Shown here: positions 51,768 to 64,000 of the stretch, piece by piece
Layout: the number at the start of each line of letters is the position of its first letter
How positions within the stretch are numbered: position 1 is the stretch's first letter
Assembly: GCA_001803395.1 (NCBI GenBank)
Contig: MHBU01000025.1
Location: forward strand, 1-64,000
DNA length: 64,000 nt
Direction of reading: 5' to 3'
Source: Methylotenera sp. RIFCSPLOWO2_02_FULL_45_14
GTDB lineage: Bacteria > Pseudomonadota > Gammaproteobacteria > Burkholderiales > Methylophilaceae
The notes under the pieces: generated by a model
Databases searched by the model: none
Seen by the model: only the letters and a program-made list of their open reading frames with translations
Told to the model about the DNA's origin: nothing
Position numbers and translations under genes: made by a program

Positions 51768-52823
51768 ATGAGCTTACCGATATTAGATATACAAACCGCA
51801 TACATGCCTTTTTCTGGCATTTTTCAACAGTCACGGTCATGGCAAGAAAGTATTCTGGGTGCCGTCTGCTTTGTTGAATCTTCAACAGGCAGCAATACTG
51901 AAATCCCGATGATTCAATTACATGCACCTATTCTGGATGGCGCGGATGCAGCCTGCGAGATATGGTTGAGTAATGCAGCTTTGTCATCAGATAAACCGTT
52001 AGGGCATGGCAGTCATGGTGCAATTCAGTATCGTTTTAGTGATGAATTGCTGTTTGGTGTCATTAGCTTACCCGAGTCAGCGCCAACGCAAACTGGAACA
52101 GAGTCAGCACCACTACAACAGACTACGGAATCCGCTTATCGCCAGATATTTGCGCTAATGGATGATCTGGATTACCCCTATACTTATCGGTTCTGGAATT
52201 ACATGGCTGACATCAACGGCATCAGCCATGGGCTGGAGCGCTACCGTCAGTTTAATGTGGGTCGCAAGGATGCTTTTCTGGCATGCGGCCGCGAGGTAAG
52301 CGGCCAGTTGCCAGCCGCTTGTGCGCTGGGTCTGGCCGATGGACCGCTTACCATCGCTTTCCTGCTTGGGCGTAAAGCACCAATCGCCATTGAAAATCCA
52401 CGGCAGGTCAGTGCCTATGAATATCCGGAGGAGTATGGTCCGCAAACACCAAGTTTCTCCCGCGCGACTTTATTGCGTGCGGAGCAAGATGACCTCTTGT
52501 TCATATCAGGAACGGCCAGCATTGTTGGACACCAGACGCGGCATGAGTCAGACGTGGTAGCGCAAACCAAGGAAACACTGGCGAATCTGGATGCGGTGAT
52601 TGCCGAGGCTAATCGTACGCTTGGTGAGCAGAAGTTTGATTTGCAGAATATTTTTTTCAGGGTCTATATCCGCCATGCAGCAGATTTATCACTGGTACGG
52701 AATGAAATACAACATCATATAGGCGGCACAATAAAAGCTGTTTTTGTGCAGGCTGATATATGCCGTCAGGAGCTACTGCTGGAAATTGAAGCAACCGCCA
52801 CGCATAGAGCGGAGTTCGCATGA
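51768..52823 (+). CDS. Chorismatase, XanB2-like (3-hydroxybenzoate synthase)
   Basis: Predicted to cleave chorismate to hydroxybenzoate plus pyruvate, supplying the aryl starter of xanthomonadin/aryl-polyene pigments. The 351 residues match the FkbO/Hyg5/XanB2 family, with a two-lobed RidA-like fold. RFWNYMADINGISHGLERYRQ (shown here in parts: RFWNYMADIN, GLERYRQFNVGR) lies near 145-170, and LLFISGTASIVGHQTRH near 243-259. The C-terminal YIRHAADLSLV strand follows. UbiC is encoded separately at 10036-10590, so this enzyme is probably dedicated to pigment. It overlaps the next gene by 4 bases. Confidence 0.82.
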   Translation: MSLPILDIQTAYMPFSGIFQQSRSWQESILGAVCFVESSTGSNTEIPMIQLHAPILDGADAACEIWLSNAALSSDKPLGHGSHGAIQYRFSDELLFGVISLPESAPTQTGTESAPLQQTTESAYRQIFALMDDLDYPYTYRFWNYMADINGISHGLERYRQFNVGRKDAFLACGREVSGQLPAACALGLADGPLTIAFLLGRKAPIAIENPRQVSAYEYPEEYGPQTPSFSRATLLRAEQDDLLFISGTASIVGHQTRHESDVVAQTKETLANLDAVIAEANRTLGEQKFDLQNIFFRVYIRHAADLSLVRNEIQHHIGGTIKAVFVQADICRQELLLEIEATATHRAEFA

Positions 52824-53674
52824 TCACAATGAATATGAAATCTGGCGAGGCATTATTACTCGGGGCATATGACTATCTTGTGTTATACCTTGGATTGCTA
52901 TGGCTGGGTTTTCTCACCCTGGGCTGGACACTAGTAGCTGCCCCACTTTATCCATTATTACCCAAGCACTACGCCATGCGTTGGGGTCGCTATGTCATCA
53001 TGGTTTTGTTTCGCACCTATCTTGCCAGTTTGAGTATGTCACGCCGCTGCAGTTTTGATTTAACTGAGCTGGATACATTACAGGGCGAAACATCACTGAT
53101 CATTGCGCCTAATCACCCGTGCCTGCTGGATGCGGTCATGATTATTTCGCGTTTGCCTAACGTAGCTTGCGTGATGAAATCAGAGTTAATGAACAATATT
53201 TTTCTTGGGGCCGGCGCACGTCTGGCGCGTTATATCCGCAATGAACCGATACGGAAAATGGTAGTGCAAGCGAGTGAAGACTTTGAAACTGGTAGCCACC
53301 TGCTGTTATTTCCTGAAGGTACCCGCACCACGCGCCAGCCTATCAACGCCCTCAAAGGCAGCATCGCCCTGATTTCCATGCAAGCGCAAGTACCAGTGCA
53401 GACGGTGTTGATCGAAACTAACTCACCTTACCTGAGTAAAGGCTGGTCATTATTCCGCAAGCCTGTCATGCCGGTCCGTTACAAGATAACATTAGGCAAG
53501 CGCTTTGACCCGCCAGAAAATGCCCACCGCTTCATGGCAGAACTTGAAGACTATTTTTCCCTAGCGCTAAAACCTTTATTGCAGCCAGCCCCTACTCAAG
53601 GCTCATTGTTTCCAATGACTACGCAAAATGAAGCCCCACCCGGCTTTAACTCACACGGAACGCCTTTGTTATGA
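52820..53674 (+). CDS. PlsC-family 1-acyl-sn-glycerol-3-phosphate acyltransferase-like protein
   Basis: Membrane-associated acyltransferase of 284 residues. A hydrophobic segment lies near 18-50, then the HX4D catalytic motif NHPCLLDAV near 95 and the substrate motif FPEGTRTTRQ near 160. In pigment clusters such enzymes attach the polyene to a lipid or sugar carrier. It overlaps both neighbours by 4 bases (ATGA), placing it in the XanB2-like operon. Confidence 0.86.
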   Translation: MITMNMKSGEALLLGAYDYLVLYLGLLWLGFLTLGWTLVAAPLYPLLPKHYAMRWGRYVIMVLFRTYLASLSMSRRCSFDLTELDTLQGETSLIIAPNHPCLLDAVMIISRLPNVACVMKSELMNNIFLGAGARLARYIRNEPIRKMVVQASEDFETGSHLLLFPEGTRTTRQPINALKGSIALISMQAQVPVQTVLIETNSPYLSKGWSLFRKPVMPVRYKITLGKRFDPPENAHRFMAELEDYFSLALKPLLQPAPTQGSLFPMTTQNEAPPGFNSHGTPLL

Positions 53675-54441
53675 TCACTGCCTCTGCCAGCCATATCGTT
53701 CTCATTCCCAGCTACAATCCGGGGTCTAAAGTGTATGACACCGTACGCGCAGCCCGTTTGCACTGGAATCCGGTATGGGTGGTGATCGATGGCAGCACAG
53801 ACGGCTCCGAAGTAGTTTTACAAGCCATGGCAGCAGAAGATTCGGGCTTGCGCGTGATCCATTTGCCACGCAACAAAGGCAAAGGCGCAGCTGTATTGCA
53901 TGGATTGAACCTAGCCGCCTCTGAGGGCTACACACATGCGCTGACCATGGATTCAGACGGGCAGCATCCGCCGGAGCTGATACCCGCCTTCATGACCGAA
54001 TCAATCAGGCAGCCAGACGCCATGGTGCTAGGCATGCCGATATTTGATGCCAGTGCCCCGAACATACGCGTGCAGGGACGAAAAATATCCAACTGGTGGG
54101 CCAATTTGGAAACCTTATGGGCAGGCATCGGCGACTCACTGTTTGGCTTTCGCGTTTACCCCATCGACCCGTTAAGAAAGGTTATGCGCTATCAACCCTG
54201 GATGCGTCATTTCGATTTTGATCCAGAAGCGGCGATAAGATTGAGCTGGCGTGGGGTAAAAGTGATAAACCTGCCAGCACCAGTGCGTTATTTCAGCACC
54301 GATGAAGGCGGCGTTTCGCACTTCCGTTACCTGCGCGATAACACCCTGCTCACCTGGATGTACACACGGCTGTTTTGCGGCTTTGTGCTGCGTCTGCCTG
54401 TGCTGTTGATGCGGCGTTTGTTGGGCATGTTTAGCCGTTAA
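53671..54441 (+). CDS. Family 2 glycosyltransferase (DPM1-like)
   Basis: The 256 residues carry a GT-A fold with HIVLIPSYNPGSKVYDTVR at the N-terminus, VVIDGSTDGS near 36, and the DXD-like MDSDGQHPPEL near 92. A C-terminal amphipathic region (VLRLPVLLMRRLLGMFS) probably contacts the membrane. Likely to glycosylate the pigment head group or a lipid carrier. It is the last gene of the three-gene, translationally coupled plus-strand operon. Confidence 0.86.
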   Translation: MITASASHIVLIPSYNPGSKVYDTVRAARLHWNPVWVVIDGSTDGSEVVLQAMAAEDSGLRVIHLPRNKGKGAAVLHGLNLAASEGYTHALTMDSDGQHPPELIPAFMTESIRQPDAMVLGMPIFDASAPNIRVQGRKISNWWANLETLWAGIGDSLFGFRVYPIDPLRKVMRYQPWMRHFDFDPEAAIRLSWRGVKVINLPAPVRYFSTDEGGVSHFRYLRDNTLLTWMYTRLFCGFVLRLPVLLMRRLLGMFSR

Positions 54442-54748
54442 TATAACTTGCTGATTGATAGCAATCTTTGCAGAATTAGAACCATTTTAAAAAGGCCATT
54501 AAATTAACCAGAGAAAGATGGAATAGCGTAAATTTTCTGTCACCTCTACGTGTGCGCACGTACAGACGATTATTATCTATTTAGCTTAAAGTTTGAAAAG
54601 CAAGATTAACTGGTTCTGCGCCTATATTTTTATGTGCGATACCGAACGGAACTAGCTGAACGAGTACGGGTATCATGTGGCTGGTTAGAGCTGGCGTCAC
54701 ATTCCGTTGATATCCATGACGCTTGATTACCGAAGTGGAGGTCATAAA
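54442..54748. other. Intergenic region before the YXWGXW protein gene
   Basis: About 300 bases without a gene. It contains a short palindrome TACGTG-TGCG-CACGTA (54547-54562) and, just before the next start, GTGGAGGT (a strong ribosome binding site at 54735-54742). No terminator with a T-run was found after the glycosyltransferase gene. Confidence 0.5.
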
Positions 54749-55729
54749 ATGCTGAAAATTCGCAACATATTGATGTTAATTGGAATACTGCTGTCCCCGG
54801 CAGCTTCTGCTGATGTTCAAGTGAGCATCGGCATCGGGCTACCGCACGTAAGCATAGGCATCAACGTGCCGGCATATCCGCAACTCGTTGTTGTACCTGG
54901 TTACCCGGTTTACTATGCACCGCGACTGCAAGCGAACTTCTTTTTTTACGACGGGTTGTACTGGGTCTACCAAGATGATTATTGGTATGCGAGTGAATGG
55001 TACAACGGGCCTTGGTGGGTTGTGGCTCCAGAGATTGTCCCCGTGTTCATCCTGCGAATCCCCGTGCGCTATTACCGTCAGCCTCCCGCGTACTTCTACG
55101 GGTGGCGGCCAGATGCACCGCCACGCTGGGGGAATCATTGGGGGCGCGATTGGGAACAACATAGAAGTGGCTGGGATAGATGGGATCGCCGTTCCGCGCC
55201 ACCGCCTGCCCCGCCGCCTGCCTACCAGCGGCAATATTCAGGGGATCGGTATCCCCGACAGGTAGAGCGGCAGCAGGATCTGCACCAGCAGAACTACCGT
55301 TACCAGCCGCGTGATCCCATAGTACAAAAACGCTATCAAGAGCGGGCAGTGCCAAGAGCGCCAGCTCAGCAGAGAAACCCCCAGCAGGAAAGAACTCAAC
55401 AAGAAAGACAGGGAGCGCCTGAAGAGAGAGGCTCCAGGCAGCAGGATATGCAACGTTCTGGACCACAGCAGCAAGATGGTAGCGCTGATCAGCGCTCAGA
55501 GTCACCGCAAAGGCGAGGCGAAGGCGTTCAGAGATCAACCCCAGCCTCTCCACAACAAGGGCGCCCGGAAGTTCAAGATTCTAGACAGCAACCACAGCCA
55601 GGGGCAACCCAGCGTGAGCAGCAGAAGCCAAAGTCACAGGACAGAGGCGAAGGGCAGCAAGACAAAGATGCCGCACGTGAGCCAAACCGTGGACAAGAGC
55701 AGGAGCGAGGTCGGGATCGCAATTATTGA
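54749..55729 (+). CDS. Secreted YXWGXW-type protein with Gln/Arg-rich low-complexity tail
   Basis: The ATG at 54749 is chosen over 54707 because GGAGGT lies 6 bases upstream and a signal peptide follows (MLKIRNILMLIGILLSPAASA). The 326-residue product has a compact Tyr/Trp-rich N-terminal part (about 25-120, with YYAPRLQANFFFYDG, YQDDYWYASEWY and YFYGWRPDAPPRWG). A roughly 200-residue disordered tail rich in Gln, Arg, Pro and Glu follows. Such YXWGXW repeat proteins are secreted and of unknown function. The base composition of the tail is GC-richer. It sits between the two converging pigment operons; a link to pigment placement is speculation. Confidence 0.72.
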   Translation: MLKIRNILMLIGILLSPAASADVQVSIGIGLPHVSIGINVPAYPQLVVVPGYPVYYAPRLQANFFFYDGLYWVYQDDYWYASEWYNGPWWVVAPEIVPVFILRIPVRYYRQPPAYFYGWRPDAPPRWGNHWGRDWEQHRSGWDRWDRRSAPPPAPPPAYQRQYSGDRYPRQVERQQDLHQQNYRYQPRDPIVQKRYQERAVPRAPAQQRNPQQERTQQERQGAPEERGSRQQDMQRSGPQQQDGSADQRSESPQRRGEGVQRSTPASPQQGRPEVQDSRQQPQPGATQREQQKPKSQDRGEGQQDKDAAREPNRGQEQERGRDRNY

Positions 55730-55983: not shown

Positions 55984-56703
55984 CTAGATCATGCCGCCGT
56001 TGATCGAGATAATCTGCCCTGTGATATAAGTGGCTTGAGTGGAAGCAAGAAAGCTAATCAAGTCCGCCACTTCAGTCGGCGTGCCAGCGCGCTTCATGGG
56101 CACCATGTGGGCGATAGCTTGGGCATCAAATGCGGACTCGCTCATAGCGGTATCAATAATCCCCGGCGCTACGGCATTGACGGTGATGCCTCTGCTGGCA
56201 ACTTCTTGCGACAGCGATTTGGTGGCGGCATTGAGCGCGCCCTTGGCTGCGGAATAGTTGGTCTGGCCGCGATTGCCGGTGATGCCGGCGATAGAGGATA
56301 CGTTGATGATGCGTCCCCAGCGGCTGCGTATCATCGGCATCATCAGCGGCTGCGTCACATTGAAAAATCCATTCACAGATACGTCGATTACCCGATGCCA
56401 CTGCTCAGGACGCATACCGGGAAATACTGCATCATCATGGATACCGGCATTGTTGACTAGAATCTGGATAGGCTCATCTTCCACCAGCGGGCCAAGTATA
56501 GCGCTCACAGCGGCGCTATCGGTGACATCGAATTGCAAAGCCTCAGCACTGCCGCCTGCAGCGCAGATCTCCGCCGCCAGCTGTTGCGCGGCTGCAATGC
56601 CTTGATTGGCGTGGATATAGACATGGCAGCCATCGGCGGCGAGGCGGCGGCTAATGGCGGCACCTATGCCGCCGCTACCGCCTGTGACTAAAGCTCTTTT
56701 CAT
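55984..56703 (-). CDS. 3-ketoacyl-ACP reductase of the aryl-polyene pathway (FabG-like)
   Basis: NADPH-dependent reduction of the 3-keto intermediate in each polyene extension round. The 239-residue SDR protein has TGGSGGIGAAISRRL at 7-21, NNAGIHDDAVF near 88 and the catalytic Ser/Tyr/Lys in NVSSIAGITGNRGQTNYSAAKG near 135-155. Length and context match the ApeQ-type reductase. It is the last gene of the minus-strand operon and overlaps the dehydratase gene by 4 bases. Confidence 0.9.
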   Translation of the reverse strand: MKRALVTGGSGGIGAAISRRLAADGCHVYIHANQGIAAAQQLAAEICAAGGSAEALQFDVTDSAAVSAILGPLVEDEPIQILVNNAGIHDDAVFPGMRPEQWHRVIDVSVNGFFNVTQPLMMPMIRSRWGRIINVSSIAGITGNRGQTNYSAAKGALNAATKSLSQEVASRGITVNAVAPGIIDTAMSESAFDAQAIAHMVPMKRAGTPTEVADLISFLASTQATYITGQIISINGGMI

Positions 56704-57191
56704 GCGTTATTTCCTAAGTTAAGTGCCAATGCATCCGCATTCAATACCACGGCGGCGCGCCCTTCCAGCAGCAGTTTATCGTCTGCGCTAATGCGAAACT
56801 GATACAGAATATTATTTTCGCTGCTCATGATACAACTGGCGATTATCAACAAATCTGCCTGAATGTCATCCAGCCGCGTCGCTGCCATCGTTACCCCGCG
56901 TACGCTAACCAGATAGCCCACACGCGGCTTAGCGCTGTCAGCGGGTGCCAGCAAGGCACCATGTACCGCCATGGCCTGTGCCGCATATTCGATGCCGCAG
57001 GCGATGCCGAGCTGGTCGTGAGCGCGCAAAGGATTATCAATAGCATGATGACTACTGGCGCGGCATACAATTTTTTCCTGATCCCAGGTTTCTACCTTAT
57101 CCAGCAGGCACATGTTGCCCTGATGCGGAATATGGACTGCAATCCAAGCATGGTTTAAATGAGTATGGTCCAACCTAGCCTTATCTAGCAT
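56700..57191 (-). CDS. Hotdog-fold 3-hydroxyacyl-ACP dehydratase (ApeP-like)
   Basis: A 163-residue FabZ/FabA-related protein with a single hotdog domain. IPHQGNMCLLDKVETWDQEK near 20-40 holds the catalytic His region, and CGIEYAAQAMAVHGAL near 65-80 is the long central helix. In aryl-polyene synthesis two related dehydratases act as a pair. Only this one is in the window; the partner is expected to the right. It overlaps the CLF-like gene by 7 bases and the ketoreductase gene by 4. Confidence 0.85.
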   Translation of the reverse strand: MLDKARLDHTHLNHAWIAVHIPHQGNMCLLDKVETWDQEKIVCRASSHHAIDNPLRAHDQLGIACGIEYAAQAMAVHGALLAPADSAKPRVGYLVSVRGVTMAATRLDDIQADLLIIASCIMSSENNILYQFRISADDKLLLEGRAAVVLNADALALNLGNNA

Positions 57192-57985
57192 GGGCTGACC
57201 TCTATGGCCAAACGTGTATTATCAAGGTAATCCAGCACCACGCGACGGTTTTTCTGCTGAGCAATAGCCTGCAGCAATGGCAGGCCGCGTGCGGCGGGAA
57301 TCGCCATGCGCAAAGTTTCCAGCGCGGCATCGTTAAACTTGCAGGCCTCGTCATGGGTGATGCTGACCTTAATCTGGGCGATGGTTTGTGGACTAGCTTG
57401 CGGTGCAAACACCAGCGCGATACCAAAGTTGTCGGGTATCGGTCGATTGCTGAACATCGGTTCGGGGTACGGCGTATCACTCGCCATTAAAATGCAACGG
57501 CTACCATCAACCACTACCTGCGTCAGTGCATCCAGCAACCCCGCACCAAAGCTGGCGTCAAAGGCACATAGTACCGACGAGGTAGCCATGGCTCCGGTGG
57601 CAATGCTCCAGTAACCAGCCGCCGCGTTATGCACGGAGTTATGAAAACGCGTGGGAGAGATTTGCCGGTCATCCGATGCCAGCATTTCACAGATAGTATG
57701 ACAATTAAGCCCGTCGCCGTTGGAAAACGAAAATACACTGGGCAAACTTGCTGCCTGCAAGCCAGCGGCAGCGATCGCCTCCAGCGAGGTTGCCAGCGTC
57801 AGTTTGACGATGTCGCTGGCACGCCTGCGCTCTGCTGCTGGCAACAGCTCCGGCGCGGGGATCACTGTTTTTGATGGTTGGTAAGACTGCTGGCCAGTCA
57901 GTACCGCGCGACAGCTGGGCCAGTCAGTGAGGCCTGGACCTAACAGGCCTATGCCTTCAATGTAAGCAGTCAATTGAGTCGTCAT
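57185..57985 (-). CDS. Ketosynthase chain-length-factor-like protein (Ketoacyl-synt_2)
   Basis: A 266-residue protein resembling the N-terminal half of a ketosynthase. The KS nucleophile cysteine context is not conserved: where the neighbouring KS has SSACSSSAK this protein has LCAFDASFG. FHNSVHNAAAGYWSIATG near 110-127 is typical of the beta-ketoacyl synthase chain-length-factor family. It probably pairs with the adjacent KS and sets polyene length without catalysis. It abuts the KS gene (shared base at 57985). Confidence 0.82.
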   Translation of the reverse strand: MTTQLTAYIEGIGLLGPGLTDWPSCRAVLTGQQSYQPSKTVIPAPELLPAAERRRASDIVKLTLATSLEAIAAAGLQAASLPSVFSFSNGDGLNCHTICEMLASDDRQISPTRFHNSVHNAAAGYWSIATGAMATSSVLCAFDASFGAGLLDALTQVVVDGSRCILMASDTPYPEPMFSNRPIPDNFGIALVFAPQASPQTIAQIKVSITHDEACKFNDAALETLRMAIPAARGLPLLQAIAQQKNRRVVLDYLDNTRLAIEVSPC

Positions 57986-59220
57986 TACTTAGGCCCTCCT
58001 GATTGTTCCAGGTCGTCTTGAGCCAAGCCGAAAATCAAACTGCAATTGGTGCCGCCGAAACCAAAGGAGTTGCTCATTACGCGCGTCAGCGCTTGGTCGC
58101 GATTTTGCAGCTGATAATTCAGTTGCAGCAATGAGTCTGCCTCGCGTGTGTTAAGGCCGCCGGGGATAAATCCATGTTGCAGAGCAAGTGCGCAAATTAC
58201 CGCTTCAACCGCGCCTGCAGCACCCAGAGCATGCCCCGTGGCACCTTTGGTCGAGCTGCATGGCGTGTCGTGGCCAAACACGGCTGCGACCCCCTTGGCT
58301 TCGGCTGCGTCATTGCTTGGCGTGGCTGTGCCATGCAGGTTGATGTAATCAATCTCGGTCGGACTCAAGCCAGCGCTCTGCAGCGCCTGTTGCATAGCCC
58401 TGCGCGCACCTAACCCCTCTGGGTGGGGTGACGACATATGATAGGCATCGCTGGATTCACCTATGCCCAGCAACAACACGGCACGGGCGTCCTGATTTGT
58501 GGATAGGCTTGGGGATGGACGTTCCAGCAAGGCAAAAGCGGCGGCTTCACCGATAGAGATACCATCACGTTCTGTATCATAAGGGCGGCAGGCTTGCGTA
58601 GAAAGCAGGCCCAGTGAGGTGAAGCCATACAGCGTAGTCAGACATAGCGTATCTACTCCGCCCACTACCGCTGCATCTATCAACCCGGCTTCTATCATGC
58701 GGCGTGCCGTACTGAATACCTTGGCGCTGGAGGAGCATGCTGACGACACTGCTGCGGCGGGGCCGCTGAGCTCAAAATATTGGCGCGTGAAATCTGCTAC
58801 CGAATAAGTGTTCTGCGTTTTGCTATAGATTAAACCAACAGGTAGCGCGCCAGTCAGCGAGTCGCGTTCACGGAAGGCTAGCTCAGTTTCCAGAATTCCC
58901 GAGGTGCTGGTACCCATGAAGACACCAATACGGTCACGCCCGTACTTATCTGCTGCAGTATTGACGGCATCGGCAAAGCCATCTTGCTCCAGCCCCAACT
59001 GCGCCAGACGATTGTTGCGGCAATTATAATCGGCCATGCCGGCCGCCATTTTCACATCATCCACGCCTTCAACCTCACCAATAAAGGTTGGCAAGTCTAC
59101 CGTTTCGAAGTCGCAGGGCTTGAGCGCTTGCCTGCCGTGACGCAAGGCGTCCAATGTCTGTTCCAGGCCATGCCCGATGCAGCTGGTGGCAGTGAAGTGT
59201 GAGAGTAATAAAGGTTTCAA
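57985..59220 (-). CDS. Beta-ketoacyl-ACP synthase of the aryl-polyene type II PKS
   Basis: Condensing enzyme of 411 residues. The catalytic triad is intact: Cys in AVSSACSSSAKVF near 165, His in INLHGTATPSNDAAEA near 300, and His in KGATGHALGAAGAVEA near 335. The C-terminal SNSFGFGGTNCSLIFG loop is also typical. Expected to extend the hydroxybenzoyl starter with malonyl-ACP units. It is followed by the CLF-like, dehydratase and reductase genes, which together form the core of an iterative type II polyene synthase. Confidence 0.92.
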   Translation of the reverse strand: MKPLLLSHFTATSCIGHGLEQTLDALRHGRQALKPCDFETVDLPTFIGEVEGVDDVKMAAGMADYNCRNNRLAQLGLEQDGFADAVNTAADKYGRDRIGVFMGTSTSGILETELAFRERDSLTGALPVGLIYSKTQNTYSVADFTRQYFELSGPAAAVSSACSSSAKVFSTARRMIEAGLIDAAVVGGVDTLCLTTLYGFTSLGLLSTQACRPYDTERDGISIGEAAAFALLERPSPSLSTNQDARAVLLLGIGESSDAYHMSSPHPEGLGARRAMQQALQSAGLSPTEIDYINLHGTATPSNDAAEAKGVAAVFGHDTPCSSTKGATGHALGAAGAVEAVICALALQHGFIPGGLNTREADSLLQLNYQLQNRDQALTRVMSNSFGFGGTNCSLIFGLAQDDLEQSGGPK

Positions 59221-59306: not shown

Positions 59307-60119
59307 TCATAAAGCGGCTTCCTGTAGCGTGACAAAATGCAGGCCCGCCTTCTCTGCGGCATCCAGCAAAGACGGTAGGACCGCCAGAATAACCGGGATA
59401 CTCTCATTGGTGCGTGCAGCGTTGCCATCGTGCAGCAATAAAATGGCGCCGGGGCGTAGCCCTGACAACAGTTTGTTTTTTACTTTTTCCGCATCTTTCA
59501 CCTGGGTATCAAAACCGCGTACTGTCCAGCTAACGAGGCGCAAGCCTAAACGACTCAACACCGGTTGCAGAAAGGGATTGCGCAAGCCAGCCGGTGCGCG
59601 GAAAAATTTGGGGCGTGCGCCAGTGATACTGAACAGCATGTCCTGTGCGGTCTGAATCTCGCGCGTAAACCCGCCCATGCCCAACAGCGAGAAATAGTGC
59701 CGGTGCTGCTGGCTGTGGTTTTCTATTGCATGACCGCGACGCACAATTTCGCGGCATAAGTCAGGGTACTGCGAGGCCCTGTTGCCTATACAAAAGAAAG
59801 TGGCTTTGGCATGAAAGCGGTCCAGCAGATCCAATACCTGCGGCGTCACCACGGAGTCGGGGCCATCATCGATAGTCAGGGCGATTTCATTGCGGCGGGC
59901 GGCAGCGGTTGGCAACTGTGTCCAGTTCGGCCCCAGCCAGTTGCTACGTGGCCACAGACCCACAGCAGAAATCAGCAAATGATTGCCAATTAGTACAGCT
60001 AGCGCCCATTGCCATAAATCCGGCGCAACGACCAGACTGATCAATGCCAGCACATGCAGCATAACGGATAGCTTGATTAGCAACGTGGGGTGCCAATGCG
60101 CTTGCTTGAGGTCAGCCAT
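59307..60119 (-). CDS. Polysaccharide deacetylase (NodB) family membrane protein
   Basis: The 270 residues have two N-terminal hydrophobic helices (about 14-50) and then a NodB domain. The metal-binding TIDDGPDSVVTPQVLD motif is near 82, with HAIENHSQQHRHYF near 130-143 giving the two His ligands. FRAPAGLRNPFL lies near 165, and LLLHDG near 230. All catalytic positions look intact. Substrate is unknown. It lies inside the pigment operon, overlapping the hydrolase gene by 8 bases, so deacylation of a sugar or acyl intermediate is a plausible role. Confidence 0.84.
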   Translation of the reverse strand: MADLKQAHWHPTLLIKLSVMLHVLALISLVVAPDLWQWALAVLIGNHLLISAVGLWPRSNWLGPNWTQLPTAAARRNEIALTIDDGPDSVVTPQVLDLLDRFHAKATFFCIGNRASQYPDLCREIVRRGHAIENHSQQHRHYFSLLGMGGFTREIQTAQDMLFSITGARPKFFRAPAGLRNPFLQPVLSRLGLRLVSWTVRGFDTQVKDAEKVKNKLLSGLRPGAILLLHDGNAARTNESIPVILAVLPSLLDAAEKAGLHFVTLQEAAL

Positions 60120-60774
60120 GGTTATTTATACCAAATCGTTTATCAAGAAAATTATGCCATAACTGCTGCCACACCGGCCACACATGATCGCCCGGGATTT
60201 TATCGACGTGGGCTGTGGGCAGAGCCTGCGCCATCATCAAATGGCTTTCTGCAAAGCGGTCATCCTCGCCGTAGCCCAGATGTATTTCAATGTCCTTAGT
60301 ATTGCCATGTGTTTTCAGCCAATGCCAATTATGGCGCTCAGTGTCTGCATCGGGAATGGCATCCGGTGCCCATGCCTGAAGACCGCCGGCGTAAGCAATT
60401 TCTCCCGTGGTCATGCGGTTGCCGGGATACGGAGCTAACAATAACACCCCTGCCAACTGTGCGGGATAACTGCCGGCATAAGCCATTGCCACGTAAGCGC
60501 CAATAGAGATGCCGGCCAGCCAGATGTTTTGATAGCCTGCTGCTATTGCAGGTTGTATCAGACTGCCATGAATTTTCGGTAACGCACTTTGATCGGCGAT
60601 ATGGCTGAACGCCAATTCCGCCATGATTAAATCGATGGCTAACTGACGCTGGCGTACTGCCTGCACAAAGCCTTCCTTAATGAAGTCTTCCGGCTGGTGA
60701 TAAGCGCCCGGCAGCAATATCATCAACGTATCGGCATGCTGTCCGGGCTGAGCCAAATCAGTGAGATGGCGCAT
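60112..60774 (-). CDS. Alpha/beta hydrolase in the pigment operon
   Basis: The 220-residue hydrolase has the nucleophile elbow LAGISIGAYVAM near 88 (G-I-S-I-G), an acidic residue in GYGEDDRF near 170 and a His in IPGDHVWPVW near 195. This is a full catalytic triad in order. No signal peptide is seen. It starts in the last base of the MMPL gene and overlaps the deacetylase gene. It might act as an editing or release thioesterase; this is inference from position. Confidence 0.75.
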   Translation of the reverse strand: MRHLTDLAQPGQHADTLMILLPGAYHQPEDFIKEGFVQAVRQRQLAIDLIMAELAFSHIADQSALPKIHGSLIQPAIAAGYQNIWLAGISIGAYVAMAYAGSYPAQLAGVLLLAPYPGNRMTTGEIAYAGGLQAWAPDAIPDADTERHNWHWLKTHGNTKDIEIHLGYGEDDRFAESHLMMAQALPTAHVDKIPGDHVWPVWQQLWHNFLDKRFGINNHG

Positions 60775-63214: not shown

Positions 63215-63853
63215 TTATGGCGCGGGCAACGGCGTGATGGTCATCAGCGAACTGTCGCCATCCGCCTGTTTAATCTCTATGGTACGCAGCGCATTGCCTG
63301 AACCGGCAATGCTTATCTTTGCCACCACTTTTTTCATTTTATCTTCTGCTGGCAGTAAGACGAGATTCCAGCTCTGTTCATCGCCTTCCATACTCAATTT
63401 ATAAGTGCGCTCCAGCGCCTTGCGGTCGCCCGCTAGGGTGCCGCGTATGCTGTCTATAAACGCCGCTAACTCAGGATAGCTTTGCAATGACAGTGCACGC
63501 TTTTTGCCACGCTGCTCTATGGTCAAGGTATCCTTGTCCAGCAACATGCTCTCGGCCTTGGGTTTTAAGGTGCGTTTTTCCAAGCGGTCTGGGGCGCTAT
63601 AAAACAGTTCACCAGATGACTCTACAGGCCTGTCGAGCATGGCGATGGATTTCTTTTCAACAAAGCTGGCATGGCCAGTGCGTATGTCTGCCAGAGATTG
63701 CATCAGTTGCTCTATGCTCCAGCCAGAATCATGCACGCTTTGCTCGGCATGGCTGATTGGTACAGTCAGCAGCATGCTGAGCAATAGCAAGCTTTGTATT
63801 ATCCAGCGTAAAAATTTACCATGTGTGGCTTCTATTTTATTCATTTTTTTCAT
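63215..63853 (-). CDS. LolA-like outer-membrane lipoprotein carrier of the pigment cluster
   Basis: Periplasmic carrier-like protein of 212 residues. It has a signal peptide (FLRWIIQSLLLLSMLLTVP...SHA near 14-36) and a LolA-type fold with the Ala/Ser-rich strand start SFVEKKSIAMLDRPVESSGE near 58-77. YSAPDRLEKRTL and LSLQSYPELAAFIDSIRGTL follow. It is next to the MMPL exporter gene, so it probably shuttles the lipidated polyene through the periplasm. It overlaps the end of the acyltransferase gene upstream by 17 bases. Confidence 0.84.
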   Translation of the reverse strand: MKKMNKIEATHGKFLRWIIQSLLLLSMLLTVPISHAEQSVHDSGWSIEQLMQSLADIRTGHASFVEKKSIAMLDRPVESSGELFYSAPDRLEKRTLKPKAESMLLDKDTLTIEQRGKKRALSLQSYPELAAFIDSIRGTLAGDRKALERTYKLSMEGDEQSWNLVLLPAEDKMKKVVAKISIAGSGNALRTIEIKQADGDSSLMTITPLPAP

Positions 63854-64000
63854 TCAAGGATGCAGGCACCGATTGCCAGTAATCGAAAAAATTAAACCAG
63901 TTATATGGCGCCAGACGAGTATAGCGGTTCAGCAGTTCGGTATAGCGAGCAATCGCCATTTCCACGGCCTGATCGCGCTGGCCTCTCGGCGTTTCGGAGA
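63837..64000 (-). CDS. Partial LpxL/HtrB-like lipid acyltransferase (C-terminus only)
   Basis: The frame is open through the right edge and ends at TAA 63837-63839. The 53 visible residues include QAVEMAIARYTELLNRYTRL and APYNWFNFFDYWQ, typical of the C-terminus of LpxL-like acyltransferases encoded in aryl-polyene clusters. The active site lies outside the window. It overlaps the LolA-like gene start by 17 bases, so it belongs to the same operon. Confidence 0.75.
   Translation of the reverse strand, partial: SETPRGQRDQAVEMAIARYTELLNRYTRLAPYNWFNFFDYWQSVPASLNEKNE

Follow-up and report, generated by a model that had tools for sequence, protein, structure and literature searches.

A CE4-type deacetylase as a standard component of arc/xan-type aryl-polyene clusters, with an optional alpha/beta hydrolase beside it

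Background

Among the closest described relatives of the locus analysed here is the arc cluster of Azoarcus sp. BH72, in which the genes arcM to arcQ encode a methyltransferase, a polysaccharide deacetylase (arcN), a hypothetical protein (arcO), an exporter (arcP) and LolA (lolA, arcQ) (PMC3949708). Within the flxP to flxU genes of Chitinophaga pinensis are a putative deacetylase, an acyltransferase, LolA, a glycosyltransferase and an exporter, for which the authors loosely suggested a role in export (PMC3992019). The ape cluster of E. coli makes a polyene acid without any deacetylase gene (PMC8253772). C. difficile produces an aminohexosyl lipid with the HexSDF system, which comprises a glycosyltransferase, a polysaccharide deacetylase and a flippase; when the deacetylase is missing, this lipid builds up in its N-acetyl form (PMC10128005).

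We compare with these systems two adjoining genes, for a CE4/NodB-fold deacetylase (DEAC) and an alpha/beta hydrolase (HYD), near the end of the window, by which we mean the whole stretch of 64,000 nucleotides of Methylotenera DNA that was analysed.

The aryl-polyene operon

The coordinates, minus-strand placement and gene order given for HYD and DEAC in a preliminary description of this DNA were confirmed from the open reading frames of the window (Table 1), and both frames are conserved in many genomes, which excludes chance reading frames. LolA lies upstream and the ketosynthase (KS) downstream of the block MMPL-HYD-DEAC. The MMPL stop codon and the HYD start codon are contained in a common TGATG, and HYD and DEAC overlap by 8 bp, whereas DEAC and KS are 86 bp apart. 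The translational coupling that had been proposed from MMPL through to KS is thus matched by gene overlap for MMPL-HYD-DEAC but not for KS, the last junction being operonic and non-overlapping.

Beyond the window the operon continues on the same contig (locus L002) with the remainder of the gene for the LpxL-type acyltransferase, followed by an ApeI-like dehydratase, an AMP ligase, a membrane protein at the ApeG position, an acyl carrier protein (ACP) and then gyrB. Profiles applied to the window and L002 recognised the whole arc/xan-type aryl-polyene (APE) core, namely the type II KS pair, the ketoreductase (KR), dehydratases, ACP, AMP ligase and a XanB2-type chorismatase. They also recognised the lipid and export set of this cluster type, consisting of a GT2 glycosyltransferase, PlsC-type and LpxL-type acyltransferases, LolA and MMPL, in an order that is conserved in relatives. 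The culturable Methylophilus sp. Leaf416 (L094) shares the gene order of the window. By its gene content the locus is an APE operon of the arc/xan type, with production of a yellow aryl-polyene pigment predicted, and the two genes do sit inside a polyene operon between MMPL and KS, as had been described. GT2 and the LpxL-type acyltransferase are separate genes here, unlike the E. coli-type fusion ApeJ.

Two further observations concern the layout of the locus. The gene that immediately precedes the APE operon is gyrB, which shares its strand (L002 13838-19850, on contig C25 past the window end). Between GT2 and KR, at 54707-55729 on the plus strand, lies a gene whose 340-aa product begins like a signal peptide and ends in a low-complexity stretch rich in Q and R.

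Table 1. Features of the aryl-polyene locus in the window, with coordinates, strand and profile evidence
Feature	Coordinates	Strand	Evidence
XanB2-type chorismatase (starter-unit supply)	51768..52823	+	TIGR04444 6.5e-66, below cut-off
PlsC-type acyltransferase	52820..53674	+	PF01553 1.1e-12
GT2 glycosyltransferase, proposed sugar supplier for DEAC	53671..54441	+	PF00535 2.3e-19; with DEAC in 25/26 genomes
FabG-type ketoreductase (KR)	55984..56703	-	PF00106 8e-55; FlxB model 4.7e-86, below cut-off
ApeP-like dehydratase	56700..57191	-	PF22817 1e-4, below cut-off; position conserved in relatives
KS partner, chain-length-factor-like	57185..57985	-	PF13723 7.3e-24
Ketosynthase (KS)	57985..59220	-	PF02801 7.7e-33; NF006618 above cut-off
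DEAC, CE4/NodB-fold de-N-acetylase with N-terminal two-helix membrane hairpin, 270 aa	59307..60119	-	PF01522 2.7e-29
HYD, minimal alpha/beta serine hydrolase, optional cluster member, 220 aa	60112..60774	-	PF00756 3.7e-6 (Esterase)
MMPL/RND-type exporter, 803 aa	60774..63185	-	PF03176 1.3e-18
LolA-like periplasmic carrier	63215..63853	-	PF19574 1.1e-26; flexirubin LolA2 family below cut-off
LpxL-type acyltransferase, 3' part of gene	63837..64000	-	ORFs; PF03279 3e-14 (L002)

Catalytic site, fold and topology of the deacetylase

The residues D84, D85, H135, H139, R174, W198, D204 and H230 are invariant in 20 DEAC orthologues and account for all five CE4 motifs: D84/D85 in TIDDGP, H135/H139 in NHSQQH, R174 in RAPAG, W198/D204 in motif 4 and H230 in LLLHD. 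The preliminary description was correct that the catalytic sites of both proteins are intact (for HYD, see below), but its second DEAC motif, HAIENH, was slightly misplaced: it only overlaps the metal motif, and the canonical metal pair is H135/H139. The AlphaFold model of DEAC (mean pLDDT 92.4) best matches structure 7fbw in a Foldseek search (TMt 0.95, rmsd 1.4), with the distorted (beta/alpha)7 barrel of CE4; it also matches the CE4 structure 4l1g (0.85) and, more weakly, ArnD. Catalytic residues and modelled fold together predict that DEAC is a metal-dependent CE4 deacetylase. The NodB-type equivalog models of NCBIfam are matched far below their cut-offs (TIGR04243, 126.4 bits against 240), so that DEAC shares the fold of NodB without being NodB itself.

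Two N-terminal helices, at residues 13-31 and 33-54, are modelled with high confidence and joined by a very short turn. The mean number of K and R residues in the 20 orthologues is 1.15 before this hairpin, 0.10 in the turn and 3.05 after it. Under the positive-inside rule, positively charged flanks stay in the cytosol; both ends of the hairpin, and hence the catalytic domain, are therefore predicted to be cytosolic. No signal peptide was seen in DEAC. The protein is probably anchored in the membrane with its catalytic domain facing the cytosol, in agreement with the earlier view of a membrane-tethered, metal-dependent deacetylase fold.

This predicted orientation would also suit an activity like that of ArnD, a NodB-fold enzyme that deformylates lipid-linked Ara4FN at the inner membrane. 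By such logic DEAC would act on an N-acetyl sugar linked to undecaprenyl phosphate and the sugar would then serve to modify a different glycan of the envelope, not the pigment lipid itself. The Foldseek match to ArnD (8t0j, TM 0.60, E 5.3e-7) and the fact that the GT2 family includes polyprenyl-phosphate glycosyltransferases point the same way. The identity to ArnD is only 17%, however, no ArnT-like transferase was recognised in the operon, and DEAC is tied to the APE exporter (see below); we consider this reading distinctly improbable.

It had also been proposed that DEAC releases the aryl-polyenoyl chain. Known CE4 enzymes take acetyl groups off sugars, and the E. coli cluster arrives at its polyene acid with no such gene, so we reject a polyene-releasing role as unlikely.

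Distribution of the deacetylase

Among 121 genomes of relatives, a close DEAC was found in 26, a close GT2 in 26 and a close MMPL in 27. GT2 and DEAC occur together in 25 genomes and MMPL and DEAC in 24, with Fisher p-values (about 1e-23 and 7e-20) that overstate the evidence because the genomes are related. DEAC is present in almost all relatives whose APE cluster is of this type (26 genomes); three relatives (G118, G107 and G094) have this GT2 or exporter without a close DEAC. Six genomes have an E. coli-like exporter (26-30% identity) and no close DEAC, and in both loci opened from these six (L163, L164) GT2 and the LpxL-type acyltransferase are fused into one protein. One of the six (G024) belongs to the window's own genus, so a single genus holds two APE cluster types: the arc/xan type with DEAC in the window, and in L163 (G024:C16) the E. 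coli type with the fusion and no close DEAC.

A second set of 81 DEAC loci, 80 of them from a GTDB species set and the last being the window itself, was typed with profiles; since these loci were picked by DEAC, they show the surroundings of DEAC and not its frequency among APE clusters. Both MMPL and KS lie near DEAC in 58 of the 81. In 43 well-covered clusters DEAC is accompanied by GT2 (36), the PlsC-type acyltransferase (33), the LpxL-type acyltransferase (42) and LolA (42). Twelve of the 81 loci lack a co-directional exporter or KS next to DEAC, in some cases by reason of a short contig or an inverted operon. Eleven of the twelve were tested, and an APE-type MMPL (E<=1e-20) was present in all 11 genomes, compared with a background of 73/350 genomes in a sample of the class. 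(The twelfth genome of that test is L079, whose MMPL adjoins DEAC and which is not one of the twelve exporter-less loci.) Several of the 11 exporters are E. coli-like, at 27-31% identity (e.g. in Methylobacter and Paraburkholderia), and in L112 DEAC lies near a fused GT2-acyltransferase, so that DEAC also occurs outside arc-type clusters. DEAC tracks MMPL in the class sample as well (17 of 21 DEAC genomes). As the search was restricted to the best candidate places of each genome, absences at this level could include misses; draft genomes may also lose genes at contig ends (e.g. G030 and G039).

DEAC is a common, standard component of arc/xan-type APE clusters. Its nearest solved relatives, which are acetylxylan, peptidoglycan and chitin deacetylases, might suggest a peptidoglycan or chitin-type deacetylase that found its way into the operon by chance. 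The close association of DEAC with the APE exporter and GT2, whether the genes are linked or not, argues against this reading, as do the missing signal peptide and the predicted cytosolic orientation, and we regard it as very unlikely.

As a separate observation, a near-complete arc-type APE cluster with a DEAC of 60% identity was found in a MAG labelled Verrucomicrobiaceae (L107), the result of either horizontal transfer or a binning error.

The hydrolase and the question of a pair

HYD has the features of the alpha/beta serine hydrolase superfamily, namely a GxSxG nucleophile, the acidic and histidine residues and the fold. Its triad (S90, D172, H197) is invariant in 25 sequences, and its AlphaFold model (mean pLDDT 93.8) has an esterase-like fold. 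A structure search returned feruloyl esterases, S-formylglutathione hydrolases and monoacylglycerol lipase at TM ~0.6, matches that do not fix the substrate. Genomic neighbours do not fix it either, in that those of the HYD homologues outside APE clusters (L155-L159) share no theme. No signal peptide was seen, and the search for a specific family found generic Pfam esterase/abhydrolase models and no NCBIfam match. We read HYD as a probable esterase or thioesterase with an editing role that clusters can do without; it may take the place of ApeK.

The last suggestion can be extended to a full release function, in which HYD would replace E. coli ApeK as the thioesterase and release the completed polyene acid from its ACP. 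The complete triad and the esterase-like fold would allow this, no ApeK-type gene was recognised in the operon, and HYD tracks APE exporters in 15 of 16 relatives and 8 of 10 class genomes. On the other hand, most DEAC-bearing clusters lack HYD and would need another release enzyme, and deletion of apeK in E. coli cuts pigment only partly (PMC8253772). A release function is thus unlikely in our judgement, and we prefer the dispensable editing enzyme.

The preliminary description had regarded HYD and DEAC as an unusual tailoring pair, that is, as a dedicated unit of two enzymes that might act in sequence on one substrate. Their overlapping genes would suit such a unit, as would the finding that in the window's family 14 of 17 DEAC genomes also have HYD, adjoining DEAC. 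More widely the two genes come apart. Only 14 of the 81 DEAC loci have HYD (all 14 being among the 58 with MMPL and KS), and two genomes of one family (L151, L152) have HYD without DEAC in the same slot, as MMPL-HYD-KS. In the class sample just 1 of 21 DEAC genomes, the window's own, has HYD (p=0.47), and there is no association at this level. The survey of co-occurrence that had been suggested as a check thus found DEAC in nearly all like clusters and the pair throughout much of one family, but HYD missing from most clusters. HYD was present in 16 of the 26 DEAC-bearing relatives and in none of the other genomes among the 121, and on the exporter tree its distribution needs about 7 changes, at least 3 of them forced by well-supported branches. 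We reject a functional two-enzyme unit on the grounds of this separability and give it hardly any credence. HYD is optional, the two genes are separable, and the pair is an ordinary one rather than a new tailoring system; the notion of hydrolase and deacetylase as a unit is corrected accordingly.

The slot between DEAC and KS is variable. In many relatives it holds a PAP2-family membrane phosphatase (L076:10805-11527, L090:10729-11496), an enzyme that would fit a phosphatidate-to-diacylglycerol step. In others (L080, L141) the slot is taken by a SAM methyltransferase. Neither gene lies there in the window. PAP2 was found in 1 of 10 HYD-bearing clusters against 22 of 33 others (p=0.003). We do not claim that HYD and PAP2 are interchangeable, because PAP2 belongs mostly to a single clade of the exporter tree and a test on independent pairs was uninformative.

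A model for lipid-carrier tailoring

From the synteny, co-occurrence, catalytic residues and folds we infer the following scheme, which on the whole we think somewhat better than an even bet: DEAC would be a conserved glycolipid-tailoring enzyme of APE lipid assembly, and HYD an accessory. The PlsC-type acyltransferase would help to make a lipid, onto which the cluster GT2 would place N-acetylhexosamine. DEAC, held at the inner membrane by its helical hairpin and probably facing the cytosol, would strip the N-acetyl group and unmask the amine. The LpxL-type acyltransferase would then acylate the deacetylated glycolipid, with a fatty or an aryl-polyenoyl chain, and the finished product would exit via MMPL and LolA. 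HYD would act in the cytosol as a serine esterase or thioesterase, editing acyl (thio)esters, and most clusters would do without it. The fusion of GT2 with the LpxL-type acyltransferase in other APE clusters suggests that both act on one glycolipid. By analogy with C. difficile HexSDF, the most likely target of DEAC is a hexosamine on the pigment's lipid carrier, whose amine it would unmask. The trimming of an N-acetyl-sugar carrier, as proposed earlier, therefore stays our best guess for the substrate.

The freed amine could serve for charge or for an amide to a polyene or fatty acyl chain. Its use for amide attachment of the aryl-polyenoyl chain is an unlikely variant, although if it were true, the pigment lipids of clusters with DEAC would differ in chemical class from those of clusters that lack it. 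Several points count against the glycolipid scheme: no deacetylase accompanies the glycosyltransferase and acyltransferases of the E. coli cluster, peptidoglycan or xylan is the substrate of the closest solved structures, and the relatives named above have this GT2 or exporter with no close DEAC. The literature covered, which did not extend to one preprint on APE lipid structure, contained no APE lipid structure for a DEAC-bearing organism and no sugar composition. The DEAC pattern would make one probable type of lipid carrier easy to recognise from a genome.

Comparison with known systems

The arc genes of Azoarcus BH72 follow the gene order of the window, except for the methyltransferase; unlike the window, they are split over two loci, with arcM adjoining arcN. 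In an Azoarcus MAG (L141) HYD sits in the arcO slot, and from this position arcO of BH72 is probably HYD. A Lysobacter MAG (L146) has both HYD and DEAC, though a Lysobacter pigment paper names neither a deacetylase nor a hydrolase. The flexirubin cluster of C. pinensis likewise groups deacetylase, acyltransferase, LolA, glycosyltransferase and exporter, the deacetylase being likened to DEAC by description; it differs in belonging to the Bacteroidota, in its tyrosine ammonia-lyase starter and dialkylresorcinol coupling, and in that no hydrolase is mentioned. ArnD shares the fold of DEAC and differs in the sugar and in the formyl group.

The E. coli ape cluster has a common core with the window (ACP, AMP ligase, ApeI and ApeP dehydratases, KR, KS, a LolA-like protein, an RND exporter, acyltransferases and a glycosyltransferase), but its gene table has no deacetylase and no alpha/beta hydrolase, and it includes the glycosyltransferase-acyltransferase fusion ApeJ and the thioesterase ApeK (PMC8253772). 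HexSDF resembles the scheme above in the proposal that N-acetylhexose is added to a lipid, the acetyl group removed and the product exported by a flippase; it differs in its families of glycosyltransferase and flippase (MprF-like), its Gram-positive host, the absence of a pigment and a deacetylation that is proposed to be extracellular (PMC10128005). Neither DEAC nor its cluster is thus of a new kind: such a deacetylase has been on record since 2014, as arcN and within flxP-U.
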